In this document: in pieces, positions 3,906-25,627 of the stretch | Numbering within the stretch: position 1 is the stretch's first letter | Layout of the letters: each line of letters starts with the position of its first letter | Assembly (NCBI RefSeq): GCF_035984415.1 | Contig: NZ_CP130720.1 | Span: 62,001 to 126,000, forward strand | Source: Streptomyces sp. NBC_01296 | Lineage (GTDB): Bacteria > Actinomycetota > Actinomycetes > Streptomycetales > Streptomycetaceae | Reading direction: 5' to 3' | Length of the DNA stretch: 64,000 nucleotides | Program-made: the position numbers and the translations under genes | Notes under the pieces: model-generated | What the model saw: only the letters and a program-made list of their open reading frames with translations | What the model was told of the DNA's origin: nothing | The model's database searches: none

Positions 3906-5384
3906 TTACCGATACGTCCAGTTATGTCCGGTGCCTCGGTACTCCTCGACTGGGATCGGTGTCGTGCCGGGGAGCATCCGGTCCCGGTAGAGCGTGCCGT
4001 GCAGGTGGTCGACCTCGTGGAGGACCAGGCGAGCGAGTCCGTGCTCGTAGCGGATGAGGCGGCGGGTGCCGTCCAGGTCGGTGTGGGCGATGACGGCGTA
4101 CAAGGGCCTGGGGACCAGACCTCGGACGTCGAAAAAACTCAGGCATCCCTCGTACTGCTCGTCCGAGTCGGCGGCGGTCTCGGCGATGTCCGGGTTGAGG
4201 AGGACGATCGGGTCGGCTTCCAGATCCGGGGGGATGACGACCGCGGCGGCACGGTCGATCCCGATCTGGCAGGCGGCGATTCCCATGCCCTTGCCGAACG
4301 TGTGCAGTTGACGGACACGCGCGATAGCTTCGAAGAGGGTGCCCACCACGCGCCTTGCTTCCTCGGCTTCAGCAGGGAGGTCGAAGGGGCGTGCGACGGC
4401 GTGCAGCAGCGGGTCGCCGTCCTGGACGATGCCCGCGCCGGCCATGGCGGCGCTCGGGGAGGTGGGGTTCACGGGCTCGGACTCGCTCTCTGCGGTGTGC
4501 GGGGTGGTGAGTCGCCATTCCAGGCGGTAGCGGGCGTGAAGCTGAGGGTCCCGGGTGCTCCACGAGAAGATCGTCTGGTCCCCCTCGATGTGCCGCGTGG
4601 GAGGCGTGCGGAGGGGGGCGAAGTCCGCGGTGAGGGACGTCTCGGTGCCCCAGACGGTGGGTTTGAGGGCGCTTGGGAAGGCGAGGGTCACGCTGAGCTC
4701 GCGGGTAGGTACGCGCACTGCCCGCTGGAACCACGGCCCCCATTTGTCGCCACTGACCGTGTACGAGTAGGTGATCTCGGCCTCTTGGCCCGGGTAGAGC
4801 GGGAAGCGGGCCTGATCGTTGGCGAACGTCAGCCATATCTCCTTGAACGCGTCCCGGTCGTGCTTGACCGTCCAGCCCATGGCTTCGTCCCCGCACTGCG
4901 CCTCGAGCCGCAGTTCGTCCCAGGTCAGCGGACGCAGCCGGTACAGGGCGTTGGAGCGCTCGGGCTCCCCGGGGTAGCGGTCAACGGCGATCCGGACGAG
5001 GTAGCGGGTGACCGGAACAGAGCCGACGTTGCGCACGAGCCTGCGCATCCGCAGCTGGTAGCGGGTGCCGTCGTACGTCAGGCGCGCCTCGTCCTCCAGG
5101 ACGAGGACCCCGGTGGATGTGGGCGTCTCCTCCGGCGTCTCGGCGGGAACGGGTTCGCCTTCGTCCTCCTGCCAGGCATGCCAGAGGGCTCCGGCGGCCT
5201 CGAGTTCCTTGTCCATGCGGCGGACCAGGTCGGAGCTTCCTCGCTCACGGCCGGCTTCCAGATGACTGACGTAGGAGGGATCGATTCCGAGCCTCCTGGC
5301 CAGTGCTGCTGCGGAGTAGCCGCGGATCGTGCGGAAGTGCTTGAGCGTTGCCGCGAAGGTCCCGCGCTCGGATCGGTCCCCCAT
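3906..5384 (-). CDS. XRE regulator fused to a peptide-deformylase-like domain
   Basis: A 492-residue fusion. Residues about 5-60 are an XRE helix-turn-helix (LARRLGIDPSYVSHLEAG). Residues about 95-300 form a beta-rich middle region of unknown fold. The last 170 residues carry all three peptide-deformylase motifs: GMGIAACQ, EGCLS and HEVDH (metal ligands Cys plus two His). Deformylases remove the formyl group from N-terminal Met. Fused to a DNA-binding domain the module may sense formylated peptides or metal, or act as a resistance determinant; that is inference. ATG 5384 is preferred because GGGAG lies five bases upstream; a GTG at 5399 would add five residues. It is divergent from queC. Confidence 0.85.
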   Translation of the reverse strand: MGDRSERGTFAATLKHFRTIRGYSAAALARRLGIDPSYVSHLEAGRERGSSDLVRRMDKELEAAGALWHAWQEDEGEPVPAETPEETPTSTGVLVLEDEARLTYDGTRYQLRMRRLVRNVGSVPVTRYLVRIAVDRYPGEPERSNALYRLRPLTWDELRLEAQCGDEAMGWTVKHDRDAFKEIWLTFANDQARFPLYPGQEAEITYSYTVSGDKWGPWFQRAVRVPTRELSVTLAFPSALKPTVWGTETSLTADFAPLRTPPTRHIEGDQTIFSWSTRDPQLHARYRLEWRLTTPHTAESESEPVNPTSPSAAMAGAGIVQDGDPLLHAVARPFDLPAEAEEARRVVGTLFEAIARVRQLHTFGKGMGIAACQIGIDRAAAVVIPPDLEADPIVLLNPDIAETAADSDEQYEGCLSFFDVRGLVPRPLYAVIAHTDLDGTRRLIRYEHGLARLVLHEVDHLHGTLYRDRMLPGTTPIPVEEYRGTGHNWTYR

Positions 5385-5608: not shown

Positions 5609-6316
5609 ATGACTGGACCCGCGCCGCGCACAGCGGTGCTCATCAGCTCGGGCGGCATGGACAGTGCCGTCACCGCGTACGACCTCGCCGACCAGGGCAC
5701 CGCCCTGATCCTGCTCTCGTTCGACTACGGGCAGCGCCACGTCAAGGAGCTCACCTACGCCACGAAGACCGCCGACCGGCTCGGCGCCGCGCACCGCACC
5801 GTCGACTTGCGGAGCGTGGGCGCGCTCTTGACCGGCTCCGCGCTCACCGACGCCTCCGTGGCCGTCCCGGACGGCCACTATAGCGACGCGACGATGGCAT
5901 CGACGGTCGTCCCCAACCGCAACGCGATCATGCTGAACATCGCAGCGGCCGTCGCGATCAGCGAGAAGGCCGACGCCATCGCCTTCGGCGCCCACGCCGG
6001 CGACCACAGCGTCTACCCAGACTGCCGACCCCTGTTCTTCGACAAAGTCACCCAGTCCATCAAGGCGGGCAACGAGGGCCTGCTCGTCACGGACTTCCGC
6101 GTCCTGGCCCCGTTCCTGCACATGACGAAGGCGGACATCGCCCGACGCGGCGCCGAGCTGAAAGTGCCGTTCCAGGAGACATGGTCCTGCTACAAGGGCG
6201 GCGAACTCCACTGCGGGGTGTGCGGAACGTGCGTCGAGCGGCGCGAAGCGTTCACCCTGGCGGGCGTGCCGGACCCGACCGCGTACGAGACGGTGTCCGA
6301 GGAGGCTGGCCGATGA
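5609..6316 (+). CDS. queC: QueC, 7-cyano-7-deazaguanine (preQ0) synthase
   Basis: A 235-residue ATP-dependent enzyme that converts 7-carboxy-7-deazaguanine (CDG) and ammonia to preQ0. The N-terminal PP-loop is SGGMDSA (residues 13-19), followed by SFDYGQRH, as in the family. The zinc site near the C-terminus is C-x8-C-x2-C-x2-C (CYKGGELHCGVCGTC). GAAGGG at 5594 and AGGAG just before the ATG are the possible ribosome binding sites. It is the first gene of a 14-gene operon and overlaps queD by four bases. No tRNA-guanine transglycosylase is present here, so preQ0 is more likely a building block for a secondary metabolite than for tRNA. Confidence 0.95.
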   Translation: MTGPAPRTAVLISSGGMDSAVTAYDLADQGTALILLSFDYGQRHVKELTYATKTADRLGAAHRTVDLRSVGALLTGSALTDASVAVPDGHYSDATMASTVVPNRNAIMLNIAAAVAISEKADAIAFGAHAGDHSVYPDCRPLFFDKVTQSIKAGNEGLLVTDFRVLAPFLHMTKADIARRGAELKVPFQETWSCYKGGELHCGVCGTCVERREAFTLAGVPDPTAYETVSEEAGR

Positions 6317-6708
6317 GCGCGGTGACGGGCTGGACCCGGATCGGCAAGCAGTTCACCTTCCACGCCGCGCACCAGCTGCTGAGCCTGCCGGAGGGCCACA
6401 AGTGCAGGCGCGAGCACGGGCACACCTACACCGTCGAGGTCGTCTGGACCGCCCACGTTCTGACCGGGCCCGGGTTCGTGACGGACTTCGCGAACTTCGG
6501 GCCGTTCAGGCAGTTCATCGACGACCACCTGGACCACCAGAACCTGAACAGGGTCCTGGAGATCGAGCCGACGTCGGAGAACCTGGCCCGGCTCCTCGCC
6601 GAGTGGCTCATCGAACACCTGGAGCCGGCCGTCGAGGGTCAGCTCGTGAGCGTGAGCGTGTCAGAGTCCCCGTCCTCGTGGGCGACGTTCGAGGTGGCAC
6701 GCGGATGA
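6313..6708 (+). CDS. queD: QueD, 6-carboxy-5,6,7,8-tetrahydropterin synthase
   Basis: A 131-residue member of the PTPS/QueD family, which turns dihydroneopterin triphosphate into 6-carboxy-tetrahydropterin, the substrate of QueE. The zinc ligands are visible as FHAAHQL (His) and HGHTY (two His), with the catalytic Cys in KCRREHGH. Length and motifs match active enzymes. ATG 6313 overlaps the queC stop (ATGA), and the queE start overlaps its own stop in the same way. No GTP cyclohydrolase I gene (folE) is seen in the window, so the first step would depend on the host enzyme. Confidence 0.93.
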   Translation: MSAVTGWTRIGKQFTFHAAHQLLSLPEGHKCRREHGHTYTVEVVWTAHVLTGPGFVTDFANFGPFRQFIDDHLDHQNLNRVLEIEPTSENLARLLAEWLIEHLEPAVEGQLVSVSVSESPSSWATFEVARG

Positions 6709-7466
6709 ACGCTGGCGCGCTCCACCTCCTGTCGAGCTCTGCGGCCGACGACCGGCAGTTATCGGTCGCGGAGACCTTCGGGCCCACCTTCCAGGGGGAA
6801 GGCCCCTCCACTGGCAGGCAGGCCCTGTTCATACGACTCTCGCGCTGCAACCTGTCGTGCGGGCACGGCAAGCAGGCCCGGTGGGCATGCGACACCCCCG
6901 AGACGTGGGACTTCAAGCGGTATGACCCGCGGGACCCGGCGGTCGCGCGCCGGCAGAGCGTGGAGTCCCTCACCGAGTGGGCGCTGAGCTTCCGTACGCC
7001 GCTGGTCGTGATCACCGGCGGGGAGCCGATGATCCAGATGACCGGTCTGACCCGGTTGGCCCGTGCCCTGCACAGGGCGGGCCGGGAGATCGAGATCGAG
7101 ACGAACGGGACGTTCATCCCCAGCGGGGAGCTGGTGGAGAGCGTGCGCGCGTTCAACGTGTCACCGAAGCTGTCCTCCGCCGGCGGGCGGGCGTCGGCCC
7201 GTATCGTCCCGGCCGCGCTGCGCGCGCTGGCCAAGAGCGGCAAGGCCCGCTTCAAGTTCGTCATCAGCCACGCCGACGACCTCGTCGAAACGGCCGACCT
7301 CGTCGAGCGGTTCGCTCTGCACGAGGTGTGGGTGATGCCCGAGGGCGTGTCCTCGAAGGCCGTCCTGGACGGGATGCGGGAGATGGCCGACGGCGCACTC
7401 CGTCTGGGCTTCAACCTGAGCCCACGGCTTCACACGCTGCTGTGGGAGGACGAGCGTGGCCGGTAG
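6705..7466 (+). CDS. queE: QueE-like radical SAM 7-carboxy-7-deazaguanine synthase
   Basis: A 253-residue radical SAM protein. It has the QueE N-terminus (FGPTFQGEGPSTGRQALFIR), the glycine motif ITGGEP, and NVSPKLSSAG typical of the family. QueE rearranges 6-carboxy-tetrahydropterin to CDG. Unusually the cluster cysteines are spaced C-x3-C-x9-C (codons at 6846, 6858, 6888) instead of the usual C-x3-C-x2-C, with HGKQARWA inserted before the conserved CDTPETW. It sits between queD (4-base overlap) and the reverse transcriptase (11-base overlap), which ties preQ0 synthesis to the rest of the operon. Confidence 0.9.
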   Translation: MNAGALHLLSSSAADDRQLSVAETFGPTFQGEGPSTGRQALFIRLSRCNLSCGHGKQARWACDTPETWDFKRYDPRDPAVARRQSVESLTEWALSFRTPLVVITGGEPMIQMTGLTRLARALHRAGREIEIETNGTFIPSGELVESVRAFNVSPKLSSAGGRASARIVPAALRALAKSGKARFKFVISHADDLVETADLVERFALHEVWVMPEGVSSKAVLDGMREMADGALRLGFNLSPRLHTLLWEDERGR

Positions 7467-8406
7467 CCCGGACAACACAAAGCCTGAGTGGGGCCGTCGT
7501 TCCCGCTCTCTCCAGCCGCGTGTGTGGGATAGCGGCCAATCAGCAGAGGAGGGGATCGTTCCTGCCACTCAGGCAGGAGCCACTGTAGCGCGCAACTCCC
7601 TTGCTCTGTCTACCCATTCGTTGATGCCGTTCCTTGTCGAACCGCGTCACCTGAAGCGTGCCGCCCGGCTGTGTATGCGACGGGCCTCGGCGCCCGGCGC
7701 CGATGGACAGTCATGGGCGGCCTTCCGGACGGGTATGCGTGAGCGCCTCGATCGGCTCGGCGAAGACCTCCGCCTGGGGCAGTGGCAGCCCGGGCCGGTC
7801 AAGGCGTCGCACGTCATCGCCTACACCGGCAAACGGATCGACATGGTGATCCCGACGGTGGGCGACCGCATCGTCCACCGGGCGATGCGCCGCGCCATCG
7901 AGCCGGTCCTGGAGGCACACGCGTTCGCGCCGTGGGTCTCCGGCTTCCGACCGGGACGCAACCGGCTCACCTCGCTCCGGCAGGCCGCCCAACACCTGCA
8001 AGCCGGCTGGGTATGGGTCGCCGATGTCGACGTGAAGCAGGCGTCGGCCGGCTCCAGTACCGATGAGGTCATAGGCTGGCTCGCCGAACACATCCAGGAC
8101 GGGTCCTTCCTGGACAGGGTCCGCACCGCCCTGGAGGCTCTGCCCGACCCGATCGCTCCCGGGTGCGGGCTGAGCCCGATGCTCCTGAACCTGCGCCTTT
8201 CCCGTGTCGACTCCGCGCTTCGCGGCCTCCACGTCGTGAGGTTCGCCGACAACTACTGCCTGTTCGCGCCCAGCCAGGCGCAAGCCGAGACAGCGAATGA
8301 GGCCCTGACCGCCGCACTCGGCAAAGCAGGGCTGCAGCCCCACCCCGGCAAGAGCCGGATCCGGCCGGCGGCCAACGCCGAAGACCTCTTCCTGATCAGC
8401 GGATGA
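7456..8406 (+). CDS. stand-alone reverse transcriptase-like protein with ADN active site
   Basis: A 316-residue RT-fold protein resembling group II intron RTs, but without maturase or endonuclease domains. From residue about 57, RT blocks follow in order: GADG, VGDRIVHRAM, GFRPGRN, the motif A region (VADVDVK), the block 4 equivalent (APGCGLSPMLLNL), VVRFADNYCLF for YxDD, and AGLQPHPGKSRIRP. The second metal-binding Asp is replaced by Asn at residue 266 (codon 8251-8253), and the PQG of block 4 is absent, so ordinary polymerase activity is doubtful. GTG 7456 lies inside queE; the first 55 residues are outside the RT fold, and ATG 7624 is a possible shorter start. It overlaps the FGE-like gene by four bases. 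Confidence 0.85.
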   Translation: MAGSPDNTKPEWGRRSRSLQPRVWDSGQSAEEGIVPATQAGATVARNSLALSTHSLMPFLVEPRHLKRAARLCMRRASAPGADGQSWAAFRTGMRERLDRLGEDLRLGQWQPGPVKASHVIAYTGKRIDMVIPTVGDRIVHRAMRRAIEPVLEAHAFAPWVSGFRPGRNRLTSLRQAAQHLQAGWVWVADVDVKQASAGSSTDEVIGWLAEHIQDGSFLDRVRTALEALPDPIAPGCGLSPMLLNLRLSRVDSALRGLHVVRFADNYCLFAPSQAQAETANEALTAALGKAGLQPHPGKSRIRPAANAEDLFLISG

Positions 8407-8990
8407 CGCCCATGACGCCCACCATCACCCCCGCCGCGCCGCCCGGGCAGGACATCTGCTGGGTCCCGGTCCCCTCCGGCGTCTGCCTCTTCGGAGACCG
8501 CGGCCGGCCGATCACGGTCCGGGCTCTGGAATGGACCCGGACCCCCATCACCCCTGCCCAGCTCGGCGCGGGAGTCAGCACGGCGCCGATGACCGGAGTG
8601 TCCCAGCCCGAGGCCGCCGAGATCGCACGCCGACTCGGCGGGCGCCTGCCTCGCTCCGTGGAGTGGGAGTACGCCGCCTCAGGCCCTGGCCGGCGCACCT
8701 TTCCGTGGGGGGAAGCGGCCCCGGAGGCCGGTCTCGCGAACCTGCGCGGCGGACCCGGCACCACCACCGAGGTCGGCTCCCACCCCGATGGCGCGACCCC
8801 GGAAGGGCTGCTGGACATGGCGGGGAACTGCTGGGAGTGGACCTCCAGCCCAGTACTGGGCGACGGGTTCATCCTGCGGGGCGCCTCATACGCCTCCCCG
8901 GGCCTCTACGCGAAGTGCACGTTCCTCAACGCCGCGCCGGCCGAACTGGCTTCGGCGGGGATCGGCTTCCGGGTGGTGAGGGAGACGTGA
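8403..8990 (+). CDS. FGE/SUMF1-type (C-type-lectin-fold) protein
   Basis: A 195-residue protein with a compact formylglycine-generating-enzyme-like fold. Seen are GGRLPRSVEWEYAA, FPWGE, LLDMAGNCWEWTSS and the closing GIGFRVVRET, all family signatures. Members oxidise cysteine, act as non-haem iron sulfoxide synthases, or serve as ligand-binding C-type-lectin scaffolds. This one is shorter than true FGE enzymes and lacks their usual N-terminal part, so catalysis is uncertain. It directly follows the reverse transcriptase (ATGA overlap). FGE-fold proteins are known variable proteins of diversity-generating retroelements, which makes the pairing notable. Confidence 0.85.
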   Translation: MTPMTPTITPAAPPGQDICWVPVPSGVCLFGDRGRPITVRALEWTRTPITPAQLGAGVSTAPMTGVSQPEAAEIARRLGGRLPRSVEWEYAASGPGRRTFPWGEAAPEAGLANLRGGPGTTTEVGSHPDGATPEGLLDMAGNCWEWTSSPVLGDGFILRGASYASPGLYAKCTFLNAAPAELASAGIGFRVVRET

Positions 8991-9451
8991 ACGCCCCCAT
9001 CCCGCTGCCGGGCACTCTGGTCATGGCCGGATGCTCCCGGCGCAAGGCGGCTGCGGCGACCCCGGTGCCCGCGCTCGACCTGTACCAGGGCGGCATCGTC
9101 CCGCAGTTACGCGGTCGGCTGGCCGGACAGCCGCAGGTACTGGAGCGGGTGTGCTTCCTGTCGGCCGAGCACGGTCTCCTCGCAGCCTGCTCCAGGGTCC
9201 TGCCCTACGAGCGGCCGCTGACCGACGCACGCGCCCGCCTGCTGCGGCCCGCGGTCTGCGCCGCCGTCCGTGAACGCCTTGACGCTCTGGAGCACCACCC
9301 CGCGCAGATCCTCCTCGTCGCCGAGCCGGCCTACCTGTCGCTGCTGGCCGATGTCCTCGGTGACGAGGACCGGCCACGCATCCGGTGGATCACCGACCCC
9401 CGCGGCTGGGACGAAGCCTCTGCCGTACTCGACGATTGGAACTGGCCGTGA
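8987..9451 (+). CDS. DUF6884-like protein
   Basis: A 154-residue protein starting at GTG 8987, overlapping the preceding stop. It opens with a CSRRK motif (LVMAGCSRRKA), then ALDLYQG, and later CFLSAEHGLLA, PYERPL and RWITDPRGW. This pattern matches the DUF6884 group of small proteins, which is seen near nucleic-acid-processing and deazaguanine-related genes. The CS-x-x-K element recalls a motif in archaeosine-synthesis lyases, but that link is weak. Its reaction is unknown. Four-base overlaps on both sides make it an integral part of the operon. Confidence 0.65.
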   Translation: MNAPIPLPGTLVMAGCSRRKAAAATPVPALDLYQGGIVPQLRGRLAGQPQVLERVCFLSAEHGLLAACSRVLPYERPLTDARARLLRPAVCAAVRERLDALEHHPAQILLVAEPAYLSLLADVLGDEDRPRIRWITDPRGWDEASAVLDDWNWP

Positions 9452-10482
9452 ACGACACCCTGGCCTACGCCTTGGGAGAGCAGCCCAACGACCACAGCAG
9501 GCTGCGGGCCGACTTCGAAGGCGCCACCGGGATCGGCTGGCATACGCCGACACCGCCGGGCCTCGCCGCTGGCCGCGCCGTGTCGGTGGTGATCCCCGCC
9601 CGGAACACCGGCTACGCACTCAAGGCCGTCCTTGACTCCCTCGCCGCCCAGGACACCCAGGGCCCCGTCGAGGTGATCGTGGTCGACGACGGATCCACCG
9701 ACAACACCCACCTCATCGCCGCCCGGCATCCCGCCGTGGACACATGGGTGCGCCTCGCCCAGCCGCAGGGGGCCGCTGCTGCCCGGAACGTCGGCACCTA
9801 CCTGGCGAGTGCCGACACCGTCCTGTACCTCGACTCCGACATGGTGCTGCCGCGCCATGCGCTGGCCGACTTCGCCGCCCGCGCTCTGCCGGACACCGTC
9901 CTCACAGGCTTCCGCCACAACGTGCCCTTCCAGCCCGGCCCGGGCGGTCAGGCCCTGGTCCCCGAAGGACCGGCCGATCTCGCGGCCGACCATCGGGTCA
10001 CCTGGCGCAGCGAGGGAGGCACCCTCTTCTACTCTGGCCATGTCCTGCCCGGCCCCGCCACGGGCAGCCCCCTCAACGACACGGACGACTTCCAGAAGCT
10101 GGGCCACGGCGCCTTCTACCTCGACTGGGACCTGGCCCGCACCGTCGTGACGGCCATGGTCGCCGTGCCCCGGGCCGCGGTCGTCGACGTCGGCGGCTTC
10201 GACGAGACGTTCGGCCGCATCGGCTGGGGTATGGAGGACACCCACCTCGGCGCCGCTCTCATCGCAGCAGGCTGTCTCGTCGTCCCGCTGCGCCAGGCGG
10301 TCGGCTACCACCTCGACCCCCCGGACGCCGACACGCAGTGGCAGACCAAGCTCCAGGGCTGGCCGGCCACGCTCGCCCACTACCGCGGCAGGCTGGCCGG
10401 GGCGGCGCCCACCGGCCGTGGCCGGACCTTCGCGGCCGCCGCACACCGGCTGCTGGTGCGGGCGGAGGTGAACGCCCGATGA
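9448..10482 (+). CDS. GT2 family glycosyltransferase
   Basis: A 344-residue GT-A-fold glycosyltransferase. VSVVIPARN, VIVVDDGSTDNT and YLDSDM (DxD-type metal and nucleotide-sugar site) lie in the first 140 residues. FGRIGWGMEDTHLG near residue 260 matches the acceptor/base region of GT2 and GT27 enzymes. No membrane segment is seen, so it should be a soluble enzyme that adds a sugar to a small molecule or peptide. The GTG start overlaps the DUF6884-like gene, and the end overlaps the radical SAM gene. With the GT4 enzyme it provides two glycosyl transfers within this operon. Confidence 0.87.
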   Translation: MNDTLAYALGEQPNDHSRLRADFEGATGIGWHTPTPPGLAAGRAVSVVIPARNTGYALKAVLDSLAAQDTQGPVEVIVVDDGSTDNTHLIAARHPAVDTWVRLAQPQGAAAARNVGTYLASADTVLYLDSDMVLPRHALADFAARALPDTVLTGFRHNVPFQPGPGGQALVPEGPADLAADHRVTWRSEGGTLFYSGHVLPGPATGSPLNDTDDFQKLGHGAFYLDWDLARTVVTAMVAVPRAAVVDVGGFDETFGRIGWGMEDTHLGAALIAAGCLVVPLRQAVGYHLDPPDADTQWQTKLQGWPATLAHYRGRLAGAAPTGRGRTFAAAAHRLLVRAEVNAR

Positions 10483-11435
10483 CCGTTCGCGCCTTCTCGA
10501 CCCGCGTCCTGGGCGGCCGGAGCCTGGTGTACGACCCGGCCACCGAACTGACCCATCTCGCACCGCAGGTACTGCCGCCTGGACGCTGCTGGCTCGACGA
10601 CACACAGGTCACGGCGTGGATGGCCGTCTTCCAGCGGCAGGTCGCCACAGCCGTGCCGTTCAACGTCTGCTGGTCGCCGCTCGTCCGGTGCAACCTCACG
10701 TGCCCGCAGTGCCTGGACGACAAGACCGTCAAAGAGCTGCGAGGTACTGAACGGGCGAGGATCGCCAAGATCCTTGCCACCAGCGGCACCCTCGGTCTGG
10801 ACATTTCCGGAGGTGAGCCGCTGCTCCTGAGGGATCTGACGGCGCTCGGCCGGACCCTGCGCTCAGCGGGTGCCGTCGTGAGCTGCACCACCAACGGCTG
10901 GCACCTCGCGCGGCGCGCACCCGAACTCGTCGGGATCTTCGACGCGATCCGCGTCAGCCTGGACGGACCCACCGCGGCGACGCACGACCACTGGCGCGGC
11001 GCGGGAAGTTTCGAGCGTGCCTGCGAGGGAGTTCGGGTCGCCGCCCGGGCCGGCCTTCCGGTGCAGCTCCACTACGTCGTGATGCGGTCCACGGCCGACG
11101 GCATGCAGCAGATCTCGGACCTCGCCAGCCGGCTCGGAGCCGGCGGGGTCACCTTCCTGCAGATGCTGCCCATCGGCGACGGCCGGGCCCTGCGCGACAC
11201 GCAGATGCTCTCCGACGCCCAGGCCCGAACCCGGCTCGACGCCGTGACGCCGCCACCCGGAATGCGGGTACGGCTGCGGACCAGGGAGATCGCCGACGCG
11301 TTCACCGTCGTCCGCGCCGACGGCAGGGTCTGGCGCAACACGGATCAGGCCAACGAGATCAGCGCGCTGCGCCGACTGATCCGGGCCGAGGACCTCCACC
11401 TGCCCGTGCCTGTCCTGCAAGGGAGTGCCCCGTGA
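10479..11435 (+). CDS. radical SAM protein
   Basis: A 318-residue radical SAM enzyme with canonical cluster motif CNLTCPQC (C-x3-C-x2-C, residues about 72-79), SGGEPLLL, and SLDGPTAATHD. This arrangement resembles the MoaA/PqqE/anaerobic-sulfatase-maturase group. A C-terminal SPASM cysteine set is not visible, so auxiliary clusters are unlikely. Substrate cannot be inferred from sequence. Neighbours suggest a nucleoside or sugar substrate, or a peptide such as the FGE-fold protein. It overlaps both flanking genes (ATGA, GTGA). Confidence 0.88.
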   Translation: MTVRAFSTRVLGGRSLVYDPATELTHLAPQVLPPGRCWLDDTQVTAWMAVFQRQVATAVPFNVCWSPLVRCNLTCPQCLDDKTVKELRGTERARIAKILATSGTLGLDISGGEPLLLRDLTALGRTLRSAGAVVSCTTNGWHLARRAPELVGIFDAIRVSLDGPTAATHDHWRGAGSFERACEGVRVAARAGLPVQLHYVVMRSTADGMQQISDLASRLGAGGVTFLQMLPIGDGRALRDTQMLSDAQARTRLDAVTPPPGMRVRLRTREIADAFTVVRADGRVWRNTDQANEISALRRLIRAEDLHLPVPVLQGSAP

Positions 11436-11989
11436 GCGGCCCCACGGCCCGTCGCCTCTTCCGCGGCACCGGCCCCTTCGAGTTGACCGAGCCCATGCTG
11501 GAGCGCGTTCTCGACGAGCTGGCCGCGGCCATCGCGCCGGACGGCGAGGTCAGCATCGTCCTCGCGGTGGCCAACGGCGGCACCATCCCGGGTGCCGGGC
11601 TCGCCGGACGCCTCGCGGTACCCCTCGCCCACGTCCACGCCAAGCACAACCACACTGACGCCATCCACACCCAGGCCACCGGGAACGTGGCCGTAGCCTT
11701 CCCCGGCGGCTTCCCGGACACGCTGTCCGGGCGGGTGCTACTCGTGGACGACATCTGCGGCAGCGGCGCCACCTTCGCCGCCCTCACCACCGCACTCGAG
11801 CCTCTGCTCACGCCCGACGGCCGCATCGAGACCGTGGCCCTGTGCCGCAACGAGGGCTCGGACCGGGCACCCGACTGGGCCGCATACACGGTCGACGACT
11901 GGGTCGTCTTCCCCTGGGAAGCCCCGCCCGGCGGTATCGAACTCGTAGCCCTGAGCTCCCCCTCTCCCCTGAAGGGACAAACCCCGTGA
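11432..11989 (+). CDS. phosphoribosyltransferase
   Basis: A 185-residue type I phosphoribosyltransferase. The PRPP-binding loop VLLVDDICGSGAT is intact, with two acidic residues before the Gly-rich loop, and VANGGTIPGAGLA fits the pyrophosphate-binding loop. Such enzymes join a base to ribose-5-phosphate using PRPP. Next to queCDE the natural guess is preQ0 or a derivative as acceptor, as in other 7-deazapurine pathways; this is inference. It starts at GTG 11432, overlapping the radical SAM gene, and its end overlaps the GT4 gene. Confidence 0.87.
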   Translation: MSGPTARRLFRGTGPFELTEPMLERVLDELAAAIAPDGEVSIVLAVANGGTIPGAGLAGRLAVPLAHVHAKHNHTDAIHTQATGNVAVAFPGGFPDTLSGRVLLVDDICGSGATFAALTTALEPLLTPDGRIETVALCRNEGSDRAPDWAAYTVDDWVVFPWEAPPGGIELVALSSPSPLKGQTP

Positions 11990-13122
11990 ACCTCACCCCC
12001 TGGCGCAGCGTGCTGCTGGTGCTCGCCTCCTGGCAGGTGGACGCTCCCGCCGGAATCGAGCGGGCGACCGCGGCACTCGCCACGGGCCTGGCGGAGGCCG
12101 GCCACCACGTCGTGATCGCCACCGCCGCGCCCCAGCCGATGGGCCGGTCCCTGCCCGGCGTGACAGTGGAGCCCCTCGACCTCGGCGTCACCTTCCCGTG
12201 CAGCGACACCACCCTGCGGGACGCGATCGATGGCGCCACCGACAAACTCCAGGCCCGCCTCCTCGACATCACCGAGCGGCACCGCACCGACACCGTCGTC
12301 TTCACCGACGCCCTGTGGGGCCTCGGCCGCCTGGAGTTGAACTTGCCGGCAGGCGTCCGCCGGATCCTCGCCGTGCACGTCATGCCCCACGCCGAGGACA
12401 TGCACCCGGCCCTGGCTCTCGCCGATACCGTCATCGCCCCCTCCGAGTTCGTACGGTCCGAGGCCCGGCGAGCGGGCTGGGCCGCCAGCAGCTGGCACGT
12501 CCTGCCCAACGCCCTGCTCCGCGAGATCGACCCACTGCCGGCGACCGAGCGACGTGCCCTGCGCGAAAGCGGACCCATTCGCGTCCTTGCTCGCCTGGGA
12601 ACCGAGAAGGGAGTCCTGCCGCTGCTCACCGCCGCAGCCTGTCTTCCCTCCCGCCGGCCGCTGCACGTTCAGCTCGCCACAGCCGCCTTCGAGAGCGCCG
12701 ACGGCTCGCAGGAGAAGCTGCTCGGCCGCTGCCGCACCATCGCCGACAAGGCCGACCACATCACGCTCAGCACCGGCACGCTGCCCTGGGACGAGGTTCC
12801 CCTCTGGCTCTCCGAGGCAGCGCTGGTGATCGTTCCCTCGCTGCGGGAGACCTTCGGGCTCGTGGCCCTGGAAGCCATGAGCGTCGGAACGCCGGTCATC
12901 GCCTACCGGACCGGAAATCTGCCGACCCTGCTCCAAGACGGCACCGCCACGCCGGGGTTGCTGGCCGAACTGATGCACGGCCCGAACGCGCTGCTTCGAC
13001 TGGCCCAGCGCCTCCTCGCCGATCCGATAGCCTACGAGCGAACTTCGAAGGCCATGTACCACCTCTCGCAGGACTACAGGCCTGTCCGTATCGCCCAGCA
13101 ATTCGTGAAGGCGGTGTCGTGA
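11986..13122 (+). CDS. GT4 family glycosyltransferase
   Basis: A 378-residue GT-B-fold glycosyltransferase. The N-terminal half has a WQVDAPAGIERATAALA opening similar to retaining GT4 enzymes. The C-terminal half has RVLARLGTEKGVLPLL and then PSLRETFGLVALEAMSVGTP, the nucleotide-sugar-binding E-x7-E motif. It is soluble, with no signal peptide. Donor and acceptor are unknown; neighbouring aminotransferase, oxidoreductase and deacetylase genes point to an amino sugar. Start GTG 11986 overlaps the phosphoribosyltransferase stop. Confidence 0.87.
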   Translation: MNLTPWRSVLLVLASWQVDAPAGIERATAALATGLAEAGHHVVIATAAPQPMGRSLPGVTVEPLDLGVTFPCSDTTLRDAIDGATDKLQARLLDITERHRTDTVVFTDALWGLGRLELNLPAGVRRILAVHVMPHAEDMHPALALADTVIAPSEFVRSEARRAGWAASSWHVLPNALLREIDPLPATERRALRESGPIRVLARLGTEKGVLPLLTAAACLPSRRPLHVQLATAAFESADGSQEKLLGRCRTIADKADHITLSTGTLPWDEVPLWLSEAALVIVPSLRETFGLVALEAMSVGTPVIAYRTGNLPTLLQDGTATPGLLAELMHGPNALLRLAQRLLADPIAYERTSKAMYHLSQDYRPVRIAQQFVKAVS

Positions 13123-13994
13123 TGGGTAACCCTGCCCGTCTGCGCTCCCAGGTCGCCCCCCTGCTCCTCGTCGACGGCTTCAACGTGCTGTGGCGTGGGC
13201 ATTTCGGGTTCCCCGCCCCGGTGTTCTCCCGGGACAAGACCCGCAACCTGACGGGCCTCTTCGCGTTCTTCGCGCTCTTGCGGGCCAGCGTCCGCGACGA
13301 CCTGGACACCGAACCGGTGGAGATCTGCGTCGTCCTGGACGGCGAGAACGGCAGCGCGGACCGCAAGGACGCCGACGCCGACTACAAAGCCAACCGGGAA
13401 TCCACCCCAGCTGCTCTGGAGCCGATCCAGTTCCTCGCCCCGATCAAGGAAGCCCTCGACGGATACGGCATCGGCTGGGTCGAGATCGACAACGCCGAAG
13501 CCGACGACGTCATCGCCACCCTCACCGCCCGCTACCCGGACCGGCCCGTGCGGATCATGTCCGCCGACCAGGACTACTACCAGCTCCTGGACGGCGAACA
13601 CGTCAAGATCATCAACCGCTCCCGGAAGGCGTCCGCGCGGATCATCACCGCCACCGAGATCGTCGAGCGGTACGGCGTCACCCCGGCCCAGTGGCCCGAC
13701 TACCGGGCGCTGACCGGCGACACGTCGGACAACATTCCCGGGGTCAAGGGCATCGGCGCCAAGACGGCCGGCGCGCTCCTGGCCGGCGGGCTCACCCTTG
13801 AGGACCTGCCCGACTCCGGGCGCCTGACCGGAGCGAAGGGCGCGGCTATCACTGCGGGTTGGAGCGATGTGCTGCGGTGGCGCGAGCTCAGCCGGATGCG
13901 GCGGGACGTGCCCGTCACCTGGCAGGCCACCGGCACCGTCAGCCCGCTCCTGCCCAAGCCCGCCGACGTCGTCGAGAAGCTGGGTCTGTGGTGA
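13122..13994 (+). CDS. 5'-3' exonuclease (PolA N-terminal/FEN type)
   Basis: A 290-residue nuclease like the 5'-3' exonuclease domain of DNA polymerase I, without polymerase. Metal-binding acids are visible in LLLVDGFNVLWRG, NAEADDVIATL and IMSADQDYYQL. The helix-three-turn-helix DNA-binding region is LTGDTSDNIPGVKGIGAKT. All key acidic positions appear intact, so it should cleave 5' flaps or 5' ends of DNA or RNA. Finding it inside a sugar/nucleoside operon next to a reverse transcriptase is unexpected. GTG 13119 is an alternative start overlapping the GT4 stop; ATG 13122 is used here. Confidence 0.9.
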   Translation: MGNPARLRSQVAPLLLVDGFNVLWRGHFGFPAPVFSRDKTRNLTGLFAFFALLRASVRDDLDTEPVEICVVLDGENGSADRKDADADYKANRESTPAALEPIQFLAPIKEALDGYGIGWVEIDNAEADDVIATLTARYPDRPVRIMSADQDYYQLLDGEHVKIINRSRKASARIITATEIVERYGVTPAQWPDYRALTGDTSDNIPGVKGIGAKTAGALLAGGLTLEDLPDSGRLTGAKGAAITAGWSDVLRWRELSRMRRDVPVTWQATGTVSPLLPKPADVVEKLGLW

Positions 13995-14602
13995 GCCGCG
14001 TCGGATCCGTCTTAGCCGTCATGGCGCACCCCGACGACCCGGAACTGTGGGCCGGCGGGACCCTCGCCCTGCATGCCCGCACCGCCCCGGTCATCGCCGC
14101 CGTCCAGGCCCACGACGCCGTACGCAACGCCGAGGCTCTCGCCGGCGGGAAGGCCCTGGGCGCCGAGGTCGTGCTCGCCGAGGCGCTCGACGCGGCCGTC
14201 GTCACGGAACTGATCCTCCGCCACCGCCCCGAGATCCTCATCACCCACCCCATCGACGACGTCCATCCCGACCACCGGCGCATCGCGGCCGCCGTCATGG
14301 AAGGGCTCGTGGACGCCGTCATAGCCACCGGCCACCCCAAGAAGCTCTACGCCTGCGACAGCTACAACTCCCTGACCCTCAGCGGGCCCGTCGCCGGGTC
14401 CGTGATCGTTGACGTCACCGCCACCTTCGAGCAGAAGATGACGGCCCTGCGCGAACACCGCTCTCAGCCCATCACCGATCACTTCGGGCCCATGGCCGAG
14501 AACCTCGGCGCGCTGTGGGGGGCGCGGATCGGGGCCTCGCGGGCCGAAGCGTTCACCGCGCTACCGATCCTCGGCCGGCTCCCCGGCACCGCTCACCTGT
14601 AG
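13991..14602 (+). CDS. PIG-L family deacetylase
   Basis: A 203-residue LmbE/PIG-L zinc deacetylase. MAHPDDPELWAGGT gives the zinc-binding and catalytic Asp motif; a Pro stands where the usual Glu follows HPDD. HPIDDVHPDHRR supplies the third ligand region. Family members deacetylate N-acetylglucosaminyl groups in mycothiol, teicoplanin and similar pathways, so an N-acetyl sugar on the product is likely. GTG 13991 overlaps the exonuclease stop. A gap of 47 bp follows, the only clear gap in the operon. Confidence 0.88.
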   Translation: MSRVGSVLAVMAHPDDPELWAGGTLALHARTAPVIAAVQAHDAVRNAEALAGGKALGAEVVLAEALDAAVVTELILRHRPEILITHPIDDVHPDHRRIAAAVMEGLVDAVIATGHPKKLYACDSYNSLTLSGPVAGSVIVDVTATFEQKMTALREHRSQPITDHFGPMAENLGALWGARIGASRAEAFTALPILGRLPGTAHL

Positions 14603-14649
14603 CCCAGGCACGAAGACCTGCTCACTTCCCGTGGAGGGGATACACCGTC

Positions 14650-15762
14650 ATGCCCCAGCACCCTGCTCCGGTCTACCAGTACAGCCAGCTCACGGCCGAT
14701 GCCCAGAACGCCCTGGTCGGCGGCGGGATACTGACCGGCCAGATCGCCACGTTCAACGGGGAGCTGATCCCCGACCTCGAAGAGCGCGTCGCTGGCCTCA
14801 CCGGCCGCGCCCAGGCCCTCGCCGTCGACTCCGGGTCCTCCGCGCTGCGCATGGCCATGCGCGGTCTGGAGATCCGCGCCGGCCAAGAGGTGATCATCCC
14901 CGAGATCGGCTGGGTGTCCATCGGCGCGGCAGCCGACATGCTCGGCGCCACCGTGCGCATCGCACCCGCCACCGAATCCCTCACGCCCACGTGGGCCGAG
15001 ATCGCCCCGCTCATCGGCCCGGACACCGCTGCCGTCGTCCTGGTCCATCTCCGAGGACGTCCCGCCCCCGGCACCGCCGAGATCGCCCGCCACCTCACCG
15101 ACCTCGGCATCCCGCTCATCGAGGACTGCGCGCAGGCGTGGGGCGTCGAAGCCGAAGGCCGCCCGGCTGGCTGCTGGGGCACCCTGGCGACCTTCTCCAC
15201 CCACTCCATGAAGATCATTGCCACGGGTGAGGGCGGACTCGTCGTCGGCGACGACCCCGACATGATGGCCCTGATGCGGGCCATAGCGGGAGATACGCGG
15301 CAGAGGACCCCGCGCGCAGTCTGGCGGTCCAAGGCCCGGATGACCGAACTCGCCGCAGGTCTAGCCCTGCCCCAGGTGGAGCACCTTCCCGTGCTCGTGG
15401 AGGACCTGCGCGCACTCCAGAGGGAAGTCCACCTCCAGCTCGCGGCGCTGGAGGGGCTCCAGCTCGTGCCCGGCTCCACCGAGCCGACCGGAAACGGGTC
15501 GCTCGTCGGCGTCCGCGCCCTCGATCCAGCCACTGCCGCGCGTATCTCCGGAGCTCTCTTCCAGCACGGCTACCGCAGCTGGTGGCCCGGTCCCGGTGAC
15601 CTTCACACCGCCGAAGCCTGGCCCGTCCAGCCGGAGCGGCAGCTCGCCGACCACCGGACCTATTTCGACATCCAGATCCCCTGGCTCCCCGCGGACACCC
15701 ACAAGCAGTGGGCCTGCACCCTTGCCGACCTCATACAGCAGAGCCTGGAGAGCGGCCGATGA
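14650..15762 (+). CDS. DegT/DnrJ/EryC1/StrS-family PLP aminotransferase
   Basis: A 370-residue sugar aminotransferase-like protein. AVDSGSSALRMAMRGL binds the cofactor phosphate, LIEDCAQAWG supplies the Asp that contacts the PLP ring, and STHSMKIIATGEGG contains the Schiff-base Lys. Enzymes of this family aminate keto-sugars or keto-cyclitols. AGTGGAGGGG lies upstream of ATG 14650, giving a strong ribosome binding site after the 47-bp gap. It is coupled by ATGA to the oxidoreductase, the usual partner that makes the keto substrate. Confidence 0.92.
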   Translation: MPQHPAPVYQYSQLTADAQNALVGGGILTGQIATFNGELIPDLEERVAGLTGRAQALAVDSGSSALRMAMRGLEIRAGQEVIIPEIGWVSIGAAADMLGATVRIAPATESLTPTWAEIAPLIGPDTAAVVLVHLRGRPAPGTAEIARHLTDLGIPLIEDCAQAWGVEAEGRPAGCWGTLATFSTHSMKIIATGEGGLVVGDDPDMMALMRAIAGDTRQRTPRAVWRSKARMTELAAGLALPQVEHLPVLVEDLRALQREVHLQLAALEGLQLVPGSTEPTGNGSLVGVRALDPATAARISGALFQHGYRSWWPGPGDLHTAEAWPVQPERQLADHRTYFDIQIPWLPADTHKQWACTLADLIQQSLESGR

Positions 15763-16871
15763 CCGCGATAGTCCGGGTCGGCATCATCGGCTGCGGAATG
15801 GTCGCCGAGGAGTACGCGACCACACTTGCCGCCTCCCCGCTGGTCCGCCTCACCACCTGCGCCGACGCCGACCCGGCCCGGGCCGACGCCTTCGGTGGCC
15901 GGCACGGCATCCCGGCCACCGAACCAGGCTCCGTCCTCGACCCGAACATCATCGACCTCGCGGTCATCCTCACCCCTCCCCACACCCACCACGCCCTGGC
16001 TCTGGAGGCCATCGCCGCGCGCGTCCCTGGCGTGTGGAGCGAGAAACCCCTTGCTCTCACACCAGGCGACGTCGCCCAGGTGGTTGCCGAAGCCGACACC
16101 GCCGGGATCCTGCTGGGGGCCGCGCCCGACACGACCTTGGGCCCGGCGTTCGTGACCGCGCACGAGGCGGTCAGGACGGGCCGGATCGGCACCGTGCTGT
16201 CCGCGACGGCCACACTCATGAGCACTGGGCTCAAGCGCTGGCACCCTTCCCCCGAACCCTTCTACGCTCAAGGCGCGGGCCCGCTGGGCGACATGGGCCC
16301 GTACTACCTCGCGGCCCTCGACGAGTTGCTCGGTCCACTGCAGGTCCACGCAGCGACCGCGCACACCCGGAAAGTACGCACCATCCGCTCCGGCCCCGCC
16401 GCAGGCAAGCACTTCACGGCCCAGGCCCCGATCCATATCGGCGCCCTCCTCACTTCCGCCGACGGCGTGCCCGTCACTCTGACCGCCAGCTTCGATGCCG
16501 CAGCCACCCGCACACCCCGCATCGAGCTCCAGGGAACGCGTGGGGCCCTCGTCCTGCCCGACCCCAACTTCCACACCGGCGACGTCCTCTTCGCCGAGTA
16601 CGGCACCTTCACCTGGGAACCGCTACCGCCCACGAGCGGGGCCCCACGGATGACCGGCCGGGGGATGGGCGTCATCGACCTGGCCACAGCACTCACCCAG
16701 GGCACCGCACCTGCCTGCACCGGCGCACGGGCCGCCCGCGTCGCCGCAGTCAGCGACGCCATCCTCCGAGCCGCAGCCCGCCCTCACCGCGCGCTGCTCA
16801 CACCACCCCACCAACACGGCACCGCCCACGCCGAGGGCACCACCACCATCGCCAAGGAGTCGACACGATGA
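15759..16871 (+). CDS. Gfo/Idh/MocA family oxidoreductase
   Basis: A 370-residue NAD(P)-dependent dehydrogenase. VGIIGCGMVAEEY is the Rossmann nucleotide-binding motif; VWSEKPLAL carries the EKP motif typical of the family. The C-terminal domain includes GPLGDMGPYYLAALDELLG, the conserved substrate-site region. Such enzymes oxidise a hydroxyl of a sugar or cyclitol to a ketone, which the adjacent aminotransferase could aminate. It overlaps both neighbours by four bases. Substrate is unknown. Confidence 0.92.
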   Translation: MTAIVRVGIIGCGMVAEEYATTLAASPLVRLTTCADADPARADAFGGRHGIPATEPGSVLDPNIIDLAVILTPPHTHHALALEAIAARVPGVWSEKPLALTPGDVAQVVAEADTAGILLGAAPDTTLGPAFVTAHEAVRTGRIGTVLSATATLMSTGLKRWHPSPEPFYAQGAGPLGDMGPYYLAALDELLGPLQVHAATAHTRKVRTIRSGPAAGKHFTAQAPIHIGALLTSADGVPVTLTASFDAAATRTPRIELQGTRGALVLPDPNFHTGDVLFAEYGTFTWEPLPPTSGAPRMTGRGMGVIDLATALTQGTAPACTGARAARVAAVSDAILRAAARPHRALLTPPHQHGTAHAEGTTTIAKESTR

Positions 16872-17500
16872 GCCGTACCCAGCAGACCTTCAAGGCCGTG
16901 ATCTTCGACTTCGGCGGCGTCCTGACCAACCCCATGGACGACACTGCCGTCGCGTTCGCCCAAGAGATAGGCCTGTCGACGTTCGCATACCGCGACACCG
17001 TCGCCTTCGACCCCGCTGGCCGCGCGCTCTACGCCCAGCTGGAACGTGGAGACATCAGCCAGACAGAGTGGAACCAGGGGATCGCCGGCATCCTGGGCAT
17101 CGATGCCAACAACCTGATGGGCCGGGCCCTGGCCACACTGGCCCCTGAAAAGCTCGTGGTGAACGCCGCACAGTCAATCCGCGCCGCCGGTCTCAAGACA
17201 GCCATCCTGTCCAACAGCATGGGCCTGGAACCCTTCAACCCGTACACGCCGTGGGACCTGGAAGCCAACCATGACGTGATCGTCTTTTCCGAGCAGCACC
17301 GGATCCGCAAGCCGGATGCCGCGATCTACCAGCTCACCCTCGACAAGCTGGGCCTGCCCGGCTCGGCCTGCATCTTCGTCGACGACAACCCGAGCAACCT
17401 CATCCCCGCCCAGCACCTCGGCATGGCCACGGTCCACGCCACCACCCCCGTGGAGACCGTCGCCAAGCTCCAGCAACTCCTGGGGATCCCGCTCGACTGA
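16868..17500 (+). CDS. HAD family hydrolase (probable phosphatase)
   Basis: A 210-residue haloacid-dehalogenase-like protein. Motif I is VIFDFGGVLT (nucleophile Asp; Gly at the +2 position, as in the DFGG subgroup), motif II is AILSNS, and motif III/IV are RKPDAAIY and IFVDDNPSN. The family mostly dephosphorylates sugar phosphates or nucleotides, and some members are dehalogenases. It is the last gene of the operon, overlapping the oxidoreductase by four bases and followed after about 26 bp by a strong palindrome. Confidence 0.9.
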   Translation: MSRTQQTFKAVIFDFGGVLTNPMDDTAVAFAQEIGLSTFAYRDTVAFDPAGRALYAQLERGDISQTEWNQGIAGILGIDANNLMGRALATLAPEKLVVNAAQSIRAAGLKTAILSNSMGLEPFNPYTPWDLEANHDVIVFSEQHRIRKPDAAIYQLTLDKLGLPGSACIFVDDNPSNLIPAQHLGMATVHATTPVETVAKLQQLLGIPLD

Positions 17501-17526: not shown

Positions 17527-17564
17527 GCCCGGGGTGCGACGGCTCGAGCCGTCGCACCCCGGGC
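17527..17564. terminator. 38-bp perfect palindrome after the operon
   Basis: A perfect inverted repeat centred at 17545/17546; the left half begins GCCCGGGGTGCGACGGCTC and the right half is its exact complement. As RNA it forms a very stable stem. There is no U tract, which is usual for Streptomyces terminators. Its place just after the HAD gene and before the separately started S66 gene supports termination of the 14-gene operon. Confidence 0.75.
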
Positions 17565-17812
17565 TCGCCGCCGTCCTTCCCCGGCCGAACCTGCAGCCCG
17601 AACCTGACGCACGCACCCCCACCACCGCCCTCAACGCCCATGTCCCGACGCCGGTAGTCGCAGCCCCAATTCCCCAAGCTCCAGTACCGGTGCTCCGCGC
17701 GTGCACCGGCTCCAGCAGCCCGCTGCGGAAACGAACTTCCTTGGCCGTCGCAGCGGTGCACCAAGGCGTTCAGGCCCGCTCGTCCAGGCACCAAGCGAAT
17801 GGAGCACCCACC

Positions 17813-19244: not shown

Positions 19245-19255
19245 AAGGAGTCGTG

Positions 19256-19804
19256 ATGGCGAAGCCAACGGATGCCTTCATCACGCTCCCGGGCGGTCAG
19301 CGCATCGAGGTGTCGGTCGGAGACGCTGGCGACGTCAGGTTGCCCAAGAACTACGCCGTGGTGGACGCTACGCGCGTTCGGGCACTGGAGCGCCCCTCCC
19401 GGCTTCGGTCGGTCGCAGGTCGTGCCACAGTCCCCGCAAAGAGCATCGCGCTTAGGTACAAGCCGGCCGCCAGTGCATACCAGCCCAAACAGGCGTTGGA
19501 GCGCGTTCTCGGCGTACTGGGTAATAACGGGGCGGCGGCGTTGCTCGGCGTTTCATCTTCTCAGCCGACTAGGTGGAAATCTGGTCGAGAGCGAATGAGT
19601 CCGGCCAGCGTTAGCGCCGTCGTTAATCTGGACGCGTTTTTGTCTCTTCTCTTCACTGTTTTCACGCCAGAACAAGCCGAACTCTGGCTTAGCGGTCAAG
19701 AGCCGTTGCTCGGTGGCGCGCGTCCGGCCGATGTCTTTCGCTCGAAAGGGCTAGCAGCTCTCGCGCCGATACTGCAGGCGATTGAACAAGGTGCCTATGC
19801 TTGA
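19256..19804 (+). CDS. Xre/MbcA/ParS-type antitoxin (DUF2384)
   Basis: A 182-residue antitoxin of a type II system. The first 70 residues are unassigned. Residues about 80-130 form an Xre-like helix-turn-helix (AALLGVSSSQPTRWKSGRE). The C-terminus has LWLSGQEPLLGGARPADVF followed by AIEQGAYA, the DUF2384 toxin-binding region. AAGGAG precedes ATG 19256 (a GTG lies just before). Codon use is less GC-rich than in the neighbours, suggesting horizontal gain. Its stop overlaps the toxin start. Confidence 0.87.
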   Translation: MAKPTDAFITLPGGQRIEVSVGDAGDVRLPKNYAVVDATRVRALERPSRLRSVAGRATVPAKSIALRYKPAASAYQPKQALERVLGVLGNNGAAALLGVSSSQPTRWKSGRERMSPASVSAVVNLDAFLSLLFTVFTPEQAELWLSGQEPLLGGARPADVFRSKGLAALAPILQAIEQGAYA

Positions 19805-23913: not shown

Positions 23914-23962
23914 CCCCCTCCCGCATCGCCACCACTAGAGAGACGCGGTGCCCCGCGGACGC

Positions 23963-25489: not shown

Positions 25490-25627
25490 CCGCGGGCCTG
25501 CGCGGCCTCCGCATCCGGGGCTGTTGGGTACCGAGCCCGTCCGCCCGCTGGAGGCGGTCGCCCAGGAGGAACCGGTTCCCGCGCCCGGCCTCGCGCGTAC
25601 TCGCGGATGACTCAGAGGGGGTGTTCC

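Follow-up and report, generated by a model that had tools for sequence, protein, structure and literature searches.

We report that an operon in Streptomyces sp. NBC_01296 joins the genes for preQ0 synthesis to a reverse transcriptase (RT), a protein with the formylglycine-generating enzyme (FGE) fold and a 5' nuclease, and that it belongs to a cassette found across actinobacteria together with a covarying RNA element. The window analysed is a 64,000-nucleotide stretch of a 9.38 Mb genome (positions 62,001–126,000 of contig NZ_CP130720.1), in which the operon occupies 5609–17500. Four observations define the cassette: the gene unit is conserved, the RNA covaries, the RT has conserved atypical residues, and no transglycosylase of the TGT family was found alongside it. 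It appears to be an undescribed system, as an earlier note made from the DNA letters had proposed, and the available parts of the open-licence PMC literature gave no description of queCDE combined with an RT, an FGE-fold protein and a 5' nuclease. Our tentative reading is that this mobile actinobacterial cassette makes a modified 7-deazaguanine nucleotide, which would be handled at the nucleic-acid level by an RT-RNA particle; two alternatives, a free nucleoside antibiotic and a defence system, have to be taken seriously.

Searches of genome samples with the RT, together with named contigs, one viral contig and one Embleya replicon labelled as a plasmid, gave 24 distinct loci (the window and 23 further ones) in at least three actinobacterial families. 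The genome samples, taken at the level of genus, family, class and phylum and from two other families, overlap each other. Within the genus, 7 of 392 genomes gave strong matches (227 bits or more; five other matches reached at most 86.1 bits), as did 9 of 249 of the family and 4 of 394 of the class (above 360 bits; 19 weaker matches reached at most 127.4 bits). A second family gave matches in 8 of 150 genomes and a third in 1 of 35, while the single match among 198 phylum-level genomes was the window's own. Four of the five named-contig matches come from Streptomyces or Kitasatospora, and the fifth is labelled Saccharothrix. Lower-scoring group II-like matches (5 of the 12 genus genomes and 19 of the 23 class genomes) were not counted as members; the low scorer that was inspected (L083, 127.4 bits) has no cassette.

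One contig (L018) ends in the RT gene, and this locus was left out of the gene-presence counts and kept in the RNA alignment. All 23 non-truncated loci carry the RT, queD, queE, the FGE-fold gene, the 5' nuclease and genes for a DUF6884 protein, a GT4 glycosyltransferase and a PIG-L protein; queC is present in 22 of the 23, as is the enzyme that would take the base to the nucleotide, a phosphoribosyltransferase (PRT). The earlier note had described queCDE, RT, FGE fold and 5' nuclease as one unit, had proposed a search for the same gene order in other actinobacteria, and had named homologous loci without queCDE or without the RT as evidence to the contrary. The unit recurs in the non-truncated loci and no such contrary case was encountered, with the partial exception of L023, which has no queC and lacks the first half of queD. 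No PRT was present in the fetched region of L050, where a nucleoside 2-deoxyribosyltransferase gene adjoining the cluster (PF05014, 5.1e-18; L050:18168-18668) is perhaps a functional replacement. The RT frame is broken in L105, and only residues 122–290 of the 5' nuclease are readable in frame in L106.

The cassette occurs in three gene orders: type A (17 loci, including the window), type B (five loci) and type C (two loci). Type A runs queC-queD-queE-(folE)-RT-FGE-DUF6884-GT2-radical SAM-PRT-GT4-5' nuclease-PIG-L, with folE sometimes last and the DegT, Gfo and HAD genes variable. Type B runs queC-queD-queE-DUF6884-PRT-PIG-L-WbqC-folE-FGE-GT4-RT-GT-5' nuclease, with queD doubled (L023 keeps one half) and the PRT missing in L050, and type C runs queC-queD-queE-FGE-DUF6884-PRT-GT4-PIG-L-WbqC-RT-GT-5' nuclease. 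The same core in three gene orders indicates that it survives rearrangement. Because every locus was found through RT similarity, the presence of the RT is by construction, and other probes were therefore run. With a DUF6884 profile, 3 of 199 genomes matched strongly (192 bits or more), each of them carrying the RT, and six weak matches reached at most 60.4 bits; neither this probe nor one with the RNA model (295 genomes) found an RT-less version of the cassette. Across 23 loci, pairwise distances correlated with those of the RT at r = 0.92 for the RNA, 0.94 for GT4, 0.92 for FGE, 0.91 for both DUF6884 and the 5' nuclease, and 0.86 for the PRT. The values were lower for queE (0.79), queC (0.77) and queD (0.61), pointing to a possibly more frequent exchange of the preQ0 genes. 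Directly 3' of one type C cluster (L107:13045-13602) lies a weak match to Rv2179c-like 3'-5' exoribonucleases, under the family cut-off.

Between the que block (or folE) and the next gene, all 24 loci contain a conserved stretch, which in the window is a structured RNA element at 7481–7589 (+ strand), inside the 5' part of the RT frame. The description of the operon in the earlier note holds, except that this element was missed. The gene whose 5' coding end it overlaps is the RT gene in type A and the FGE gene in types B and C. The pairs, drawn by hand from the 24 aligned sequences, are P1 (7482–7491 with 7565–7574), P2 (7498–7511 with 7545–7558) and P3 (7515–7519 with 7532–7536), with a conserved 3' tail to 7589. 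The 28 pairs of this structure are formed in 85.1% of cells, against 32–49% when the partners are slid by one to three columns. Since the structure was drawn from the same sequences, this percentage is biased upward, and the compensations are stronger evidence: both sides change in 15 of the 28 pairs (6 of 500 shuffles were as high), and compensated cells number 102 against 33.9 in shuffles (standard deviation 5.3; none of 500 reached the observed number) and 14–39 in the slid controls.

Unaided, RNAalifold recovered P1 unchanged along with the five upper pairs of P2, and 14 of its 22 pairs were compensated. It shifted lower P2 by one column and gave another fold for the apical part, which makes P3 and lower P2 the least certain parts. 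The element was unmatched in Rfam, which gave two chance-level matches elsewhere in the operon and none around four clusters. A covariance model at E of at most 0.1 matched each of 22 cluster-bearing genomes exactly once, inside the cluster. Across the genus, it matched 4 of 295 genomes, all of them cluster-bearing, under stricter filters that can lose weak matches.

The element is probably also translated, because one frame is open through it in all 24 loci (against 4 and 8 loci for the other frames) and an in-frame start codon lies 7–25 nt upstream in every locus, with a crude Shine-Dalgarno match in 18. This frame continues into the RT in type A (broken in L105) and into the FGE protein in types B and C. 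Its codons are constrained in an unusual manner: third positions are invariant in 8 of 34 element columns compared with 3–5% in the RT, FGE, queE, 5' nuclease and PRT genes, and the GC content at third positions is 0.68 compared with 0.87–0.90 in cluster genes. Over all 276 pairs, the ratio of non-synonymous to synonymous differences (pN/pS) was 0.76 for the element and 0.62 for the RT, with far pairs near saturation, so 22 close pairs were used; for these, the synonymous difference was 0.118 in the element, 0.333 in the RT and 0.386 in queE. A noncoding RNA gene outside any frame was rejected because all 24 loci have an open frame and a start codon in phase with it, and the RT start at 7456 given in the earlier note stands. 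Conservation purely at the protein level was rejected on the constrained third positions and synonymous sites. By these sequence patterns, the element is an RNA that overlaps a coding start.

A separate RNA acting with the RT and a structure within the mRNA are about equally likely. That the element is only a cis-acting mRNA structure, tuning translation of the first gene after the que block, perhaps through RT binding, is a quite credible possibility somewhat short of even; it concerns the RNA alone and is compatible with every other reading. The start codon upstream and the frame open throughout are what it would expect, as are loop lengths that vary in multiples of three and a site fixed behind the que or folE genes although the next gene varies. 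It fits less well with covariation that includes double substitutions altering amino acids, and with the invariant third positions described above. The start codon also lies 5' of the element, so it is not evident how the element would simply mask the ribosome site.

The RT gene (7456–8406, + strand) has a GTG start with GGGAGG upstream and encodes an RT of the group II lineage with fingers and palm only. We predicted its structure with AlphaFold from seven sequences; the best model had a mean predicted local distance difference test score (pLDDT) of 77.8 and the other four 42–49. The structures closest to the best model are group II intron RT domains (5hhk, E 2.6e-13; 7k9y, template modelling score 0.82, root mean square deviation 2.5), and RTs of diversity-generating retroelements rank below them. 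The protein stops after the palm and has no thumb. Profile matches (general RT model 1.2e-36, group II RT 3.6e-35, UG4 only 3.1e-12) place it outside the UG/DRT/retron class. It is no group II intron: there is no thumb or maturase domain, and Rfam gave no intron match over the window's cluster or around four clusters. RT matches in the viral collection other than L028 (21 of 22 loci) are distant RTs with 23–31% identity, and in the seven of these 21 that were annotated, using gene calls from a program trained on high-GC genes, no cassette gene matched except the RT.

The active site of the RT is atypical in a conserved way. The motif A Asp (codon 8029–8031) is kept in 24 of 24 loci. In motif C (Asp-Asn codons 8248–8253), xxDN replaces YADD in all 23 readable loci (L105 is unreadable), in the variants FADN, FVDN, MTDN, MADN, FTDN and LTDN. 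The canonical Asp triad is thus incomplete, with Asn as the third residue in 23 of 23 and the other two Asp kept. At the position aligned with the second Phe of KFF in the GsI-IIC RT, which we take to be the sugar gate for deoxynucleoside triphosphates (dNTPs), the 24 loci have Ser (21, including the window at 8044–8046), Thr (two, L107 and L110) or Ala (one, L050). Natural polymerases with xDN exist. In G2L4 RT, a group II-type enzyme, the second Asp of motif C is described in the available text of PMC12337344 as pointing away from the active site, so the Asn in the cassette RT need not abolish catalysis.

Judged by protein family, the biosynthetic genes would yield a preQ0 nucleotide bearing a carboxamide and an amino sugar. 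The preQ0 genes are queC, 7-cyano-7-deazaguanine synthase (5609–6316, + strand as for all operon genes; PF06508 2.1e-60; TIGR00364 178.5 bits against a cut-off of 150.3), queD, 6-carboxytetrahydropterin synthase (6313–6708; PF01242 1.4e-28), and queE, the radical S-adenosylmethionine (SAM) enzyme 7-carboxy-7-deazaguanine synthase (6705–7466; TIGR03365 4.2e-21, under the curated cut-off), in which the three cluster Cys are invariant in 24 of 24 loci. The type I PRT (11432–11989; PF00156 5.7e-13) has an invariant loop for phosphoribosyl pyrophosphate (PRPP), DDIxGxGxT, in 22 of 22 loci. For comparison, the accessible part of PMC6112128 has TubE, the PRT of the tubercidin pathway, joining PRPP to CDG, the precursor of preQ0.

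The DUF6884 protein (8987–9451; PF21818 1.1e-08), of the DpdC/YaaA-like superfamily, is a candidate nitrile hydrolase. Its CxxxK and SAxxG motifs are invariant in 23 of 23 loci, with Leu before SA in at least 90%. In the sections available of each paper, CxxxK and (L)SAxxG are the motifs named for the DUF6884 family (PMC11701544), DUF6884 is given as the dpdC domain (PMC11888242), and DpdC, filed under PF03883, hydrolyses dPreQ0 to the carboxamide dADG (PMC12839542). PF03883 is a distant relative of DUF6884. The GT4 glycosyltransferase (11986–13122; PF13692 1.5e-18) was present in 23 of 23 non-truncated loci and is accompanied by a BshB1-like PIG-L deacetylase (13991–14602; PF02585 3.2e-09; TIGR04001 5.5e-16, under the cut-off). 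We presume that this pair resembles that of bacillithiol and mycothiol, with hexosamine transfer followed by deacetylation.

A search for proteins of the TGT family (PF01702) found none in 22 cluster genomes, of which 19 are 90% complete or more, and gave matches in 14 of 14 controls. Insertion by base exchange of the queuosine or Dpd type is thus unlikely, and Dpd-like transglycosylation was rejected on the same 22 genomes.

The operon comprises fifteen genes in one direction, where the earlier note counted 14; its genes and junctions were otherwise as described, with 13 overlaps of 1–11 bases and a single gap of 47 bp, 5' of DegT, among the 14 junctions. Codon-usage gene calling recovers identical genes except for an RT start placed further in (7735). 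Pfam supports the family of every gene, queE through sub-threshold matches only. The FGE/C-type-lectin-fold protein (8403–8990; PF03781 1.7e-21), conserved in 23 loci, matches the FGE domain in its C-terminal part only, and its predicted structure (mean pLDDT 57.9) was too poor for a structure search. Formylglycine-generating enzyme has a copper-binding Cys pair. A conserved Cys was sought in the FGE-fold protein across the 23 loci and none was found, and classic FGE or EgtB chemistry was rejected on this and on the partial domain. The PolI-type 5'-3' exonuclease or flap nuclease (13122–13994, alternative start 13119; PF02739 9.6e-32, PF01367 9.3e-19) retains the central and C-terminal acidic residues of its metal site invariant in 23 loci and the N-terminal ones in at least 90%. 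A GT2 glycosyltransferase (9448–10482; PF00535 1.6e-19) and a radical SAM enzyme (10479–11435; PF04055 9.8e-14) are present in 16 of 16 full type A loci and confined to that type. The variable part, absent from some loci, consists of a DegT/DnrJ/EryC1 aminotransferase (14650–15762; PF01041 4.2e-45), a Gfo/Idh/MocA oxidoreductase (15759–16871; PF01408 6.3e-16) and a HAD hydrolase (16868–17500; PF00702 4e-13).

In the mechanism we propose, QueD, QueE and QueC, with FolE, would produce preQ0, the PRT would attach ribose-5-phosphate from PRPP, the DUF6884 protein would hydrolyse the nitrile to a carboxamide, and GT4 would add an amino sugar that the PIG-L protein would deacetylate. Type A loci would have extra GT2 and radical SAM steps, and in types B and C a second GT4 and WbqC would take part. 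The RT, thumbless and with a small gate residue and xxDN motif C, would bind the conserved RNA hairpin and extend a nucleic-acid end with ribonucleotides that include the modified one, while the 5' nuclease would trim the displaced or primer strand. Such RT-based installation would stand in for the transglycosylase of the queuosine and Dpd pathways. That RT and RNA act together, and that there is a polymerisation or installation step, is conjecture; coupling of the RT, RNA and flap nuclease to the deazaguanine chemistry is suggested by genetic linkage only. In its boldest form, which we regard as rather improbable, the cassette would be a new RNA-protein machine, in which a relaxed-gate RT with its own RNA polymerises a glycosylated 7-deazaguanine nucleotide into RNA or DNA with flap removal, instead of base exchange, to give a hypermodified base or a natural product built on nucleic acid.

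Several observations weigh against this mechanism. The core has no nucleotide kinase, and the FGE-fold protein, GT2 and radical SAM enzyme have no step assigned. The motif B Gln, which we presume contacts the dNTP, is not kept and neither is the RT2 Arg; loss of the Gln makes RT activity uncertain, and an RT without these residues or a thumb may be a relic that binds RNA but no longer catalyses. The RNA of types B and C sits within the FGE gene, away from the RT, and the RNA could be a cis-acting mRNA structure. Further pair types in the RNA number 26, below the 30.1 of shuffles (497 of 500 as high), and transporters beside some Streptomyces loci fit a secreted metabolite.

The surroundings of the loci point to mobility. 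The L019 cassette is flanked by scaffold, major head and minor head genes on one side and by neck/tail genes on the other, and L028 is an IMG/VR viral contig whose flanking proteins, compared by eye, are similar to those of L019. These two of the 24 loci appear to be inside prophages. Their setting is an unusual cargo site, with the whole cassette, including folE, amid the head and tail genes of Kitasatospora-type prophages. The Embleya copy is on a 5.7 Mb linear replicon.

Divergent from queC in the window is a helix-turn-helix (HTH) protein with a peptide-deformylase domain (3906–5384, − strand; PF01327, PF13560; motifs QYEGCLS and HEVDH), with homologues of 69–75% identity beside L017, L021, L022 and L025 (types A and B); it is likely a regulator. 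Just 3' of the operon is an S66 LD-carboxypeptidase (17534–18754), which we take to be of the MccF-like family and which had no homologue beside the other clusters examined. A RES-domain protein (19253–20373) behind a weak Xre/MbcA/ParS match under the cut-off is likely part of a toxin-antitoxin pair. Further away, a CHAT-TPR protein (34740–38648, 1302 aa) and a STAND-like AAA/TPR protein (57279–61853, 1524 aa) are possible conflict-system genes, and an RHS-repeat protein of 2033 aa is encoded at 45798–51899.

Among the rivals, it is possible, if doubtful, that the cassette makes a natural product of the tubercidin or huimycin kind, a free and exported amino-sugar 7-deazaguanine nucleoside, with the RT and 5' nuclease acting in self-protection or as decoy copies of the target. 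According to the accessible portions of the two reports, the tubercidin cluster also has PRPP-type assembly, Nudix and major facilitator superfamily (MFS) genes (PMC6112128), and N-acetylglucosamine transfer onto a preQ0-derived core has been proposed for huimycin (PMC7439116). The sugar genes DegT, Gfo/Idh and HAD would suit such a product, as would an accessory module downstream in the window (21904–28311, + strand) that encodes an ATP-binding cassette (ABC) transporter, a triple-NUDIX protein, an MFS transporter and a PCMT methyltransferase. Homologues of this module, in part, lie beside 4 of the 16 other clusters for which the downstream flank was fetched (two type A and two type B, all Streptomyces). 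Homologues of the window's ABC, NUDIX, MFS or PCMT genes were absent from the flanks of the remaining 12 (two Streptomyces clusters and ten outside that genus), other kinds of exporter not having been searched for; a transporter was rejected as a core part on these counts. The two copies apparently in prophages also speak against a product cluster, and an RNA conserved in 24 of 24 loci is not what one would expect beside a gene for self-protection.

The apparent prophage copies, the patchy distribution (7 of 392 genomes in the genus) and the plasmid-labelled replicon are in line with an anti-phage or inter-phage conflict system, in which an RT-RNA particle would sense or act on an invader and the deazaguanine nucleotide would mark self or poison the invader's polymerase. 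Defence systems pairing an RT with a noncoding RNA exist, according to the available text of PMC12596737. We nevertheless consider this explanation unlikely, given the large biosynthetic content without a known effector, and a PADLOC scan of ten operon proteins that returned only general RT, QueC/QatC, viperin-like, PDC-M57A (DUF6884) and weak PRT similarities. A diversity-generating retroelement, in which the RT would act on a C-type-lectin-fold target, is suggested by the RT adjoining the FGE-fold gene in type A loci, yet is very improbable and was rejected: no template/variable repeat pair was found in the window, similarity between the RNA region and the 3' end of the FGE gene never exceeded the best codon shuffle (23 of 23 loci, z −1.7 to 2.2), and the RT most resembles group II RTs. 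That two unrelated operons came together by chance has nothing in its favour but the mixed gene content; the same core in 23 further loci and three gene orders refutes it, and we give it practically no weight.

An RT and a conserved RNA fixed in a small-molecule or nucleotide operon match no RT class or deazapurine pathway tested. If our tentative reading of a modified nucleotide handled by an RT-RNA particle is true, the cassette would give domesticated RTs a new role and offer a possible route of 7-deazaguanine into nucleic acid that needs no transglycosylase; through the defined RNA element and the conserved residues, the question is accessible to direct experiment. With the toyocamycin, tubercidin and huimycin clusters, the cassette shares preQ0-type genes, PRPP assembly (tubercidin), amino-sugar transfer (huimycin) and, in some loci, Nudix and MFS genes nearby; it differs in its fixed RT, RNA, 5' nuclease, DUF6884 and FGE-fold genes and in most loci being without homologues of the window's transporters. 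The Dpd DNA-modification islands likewise have a preQ0 supply, a DpdC-superfamily protein and a place in mobile DNA, whereas in the cassette genomes no TGT-family protein was found (22 of 22) and a PRT stands in its place. DRT2 and DRT9 defence systems also link an RT genomically to a conserved structured RNA, but the cassette RT is of another lineage, its link to the RNA is genetic only, and the RNA overlaps a reading frame within a large biosynthetic operon. Like G2L4 and CRISPR-associated RTs, the cassette RT is a group II-lineage domain without an intron; unlike them, it lacks a thumb and maturase domain, has xxDN for YADD or YIDD, and sits in a biosynthetic operon with an RNA of its own cluster.

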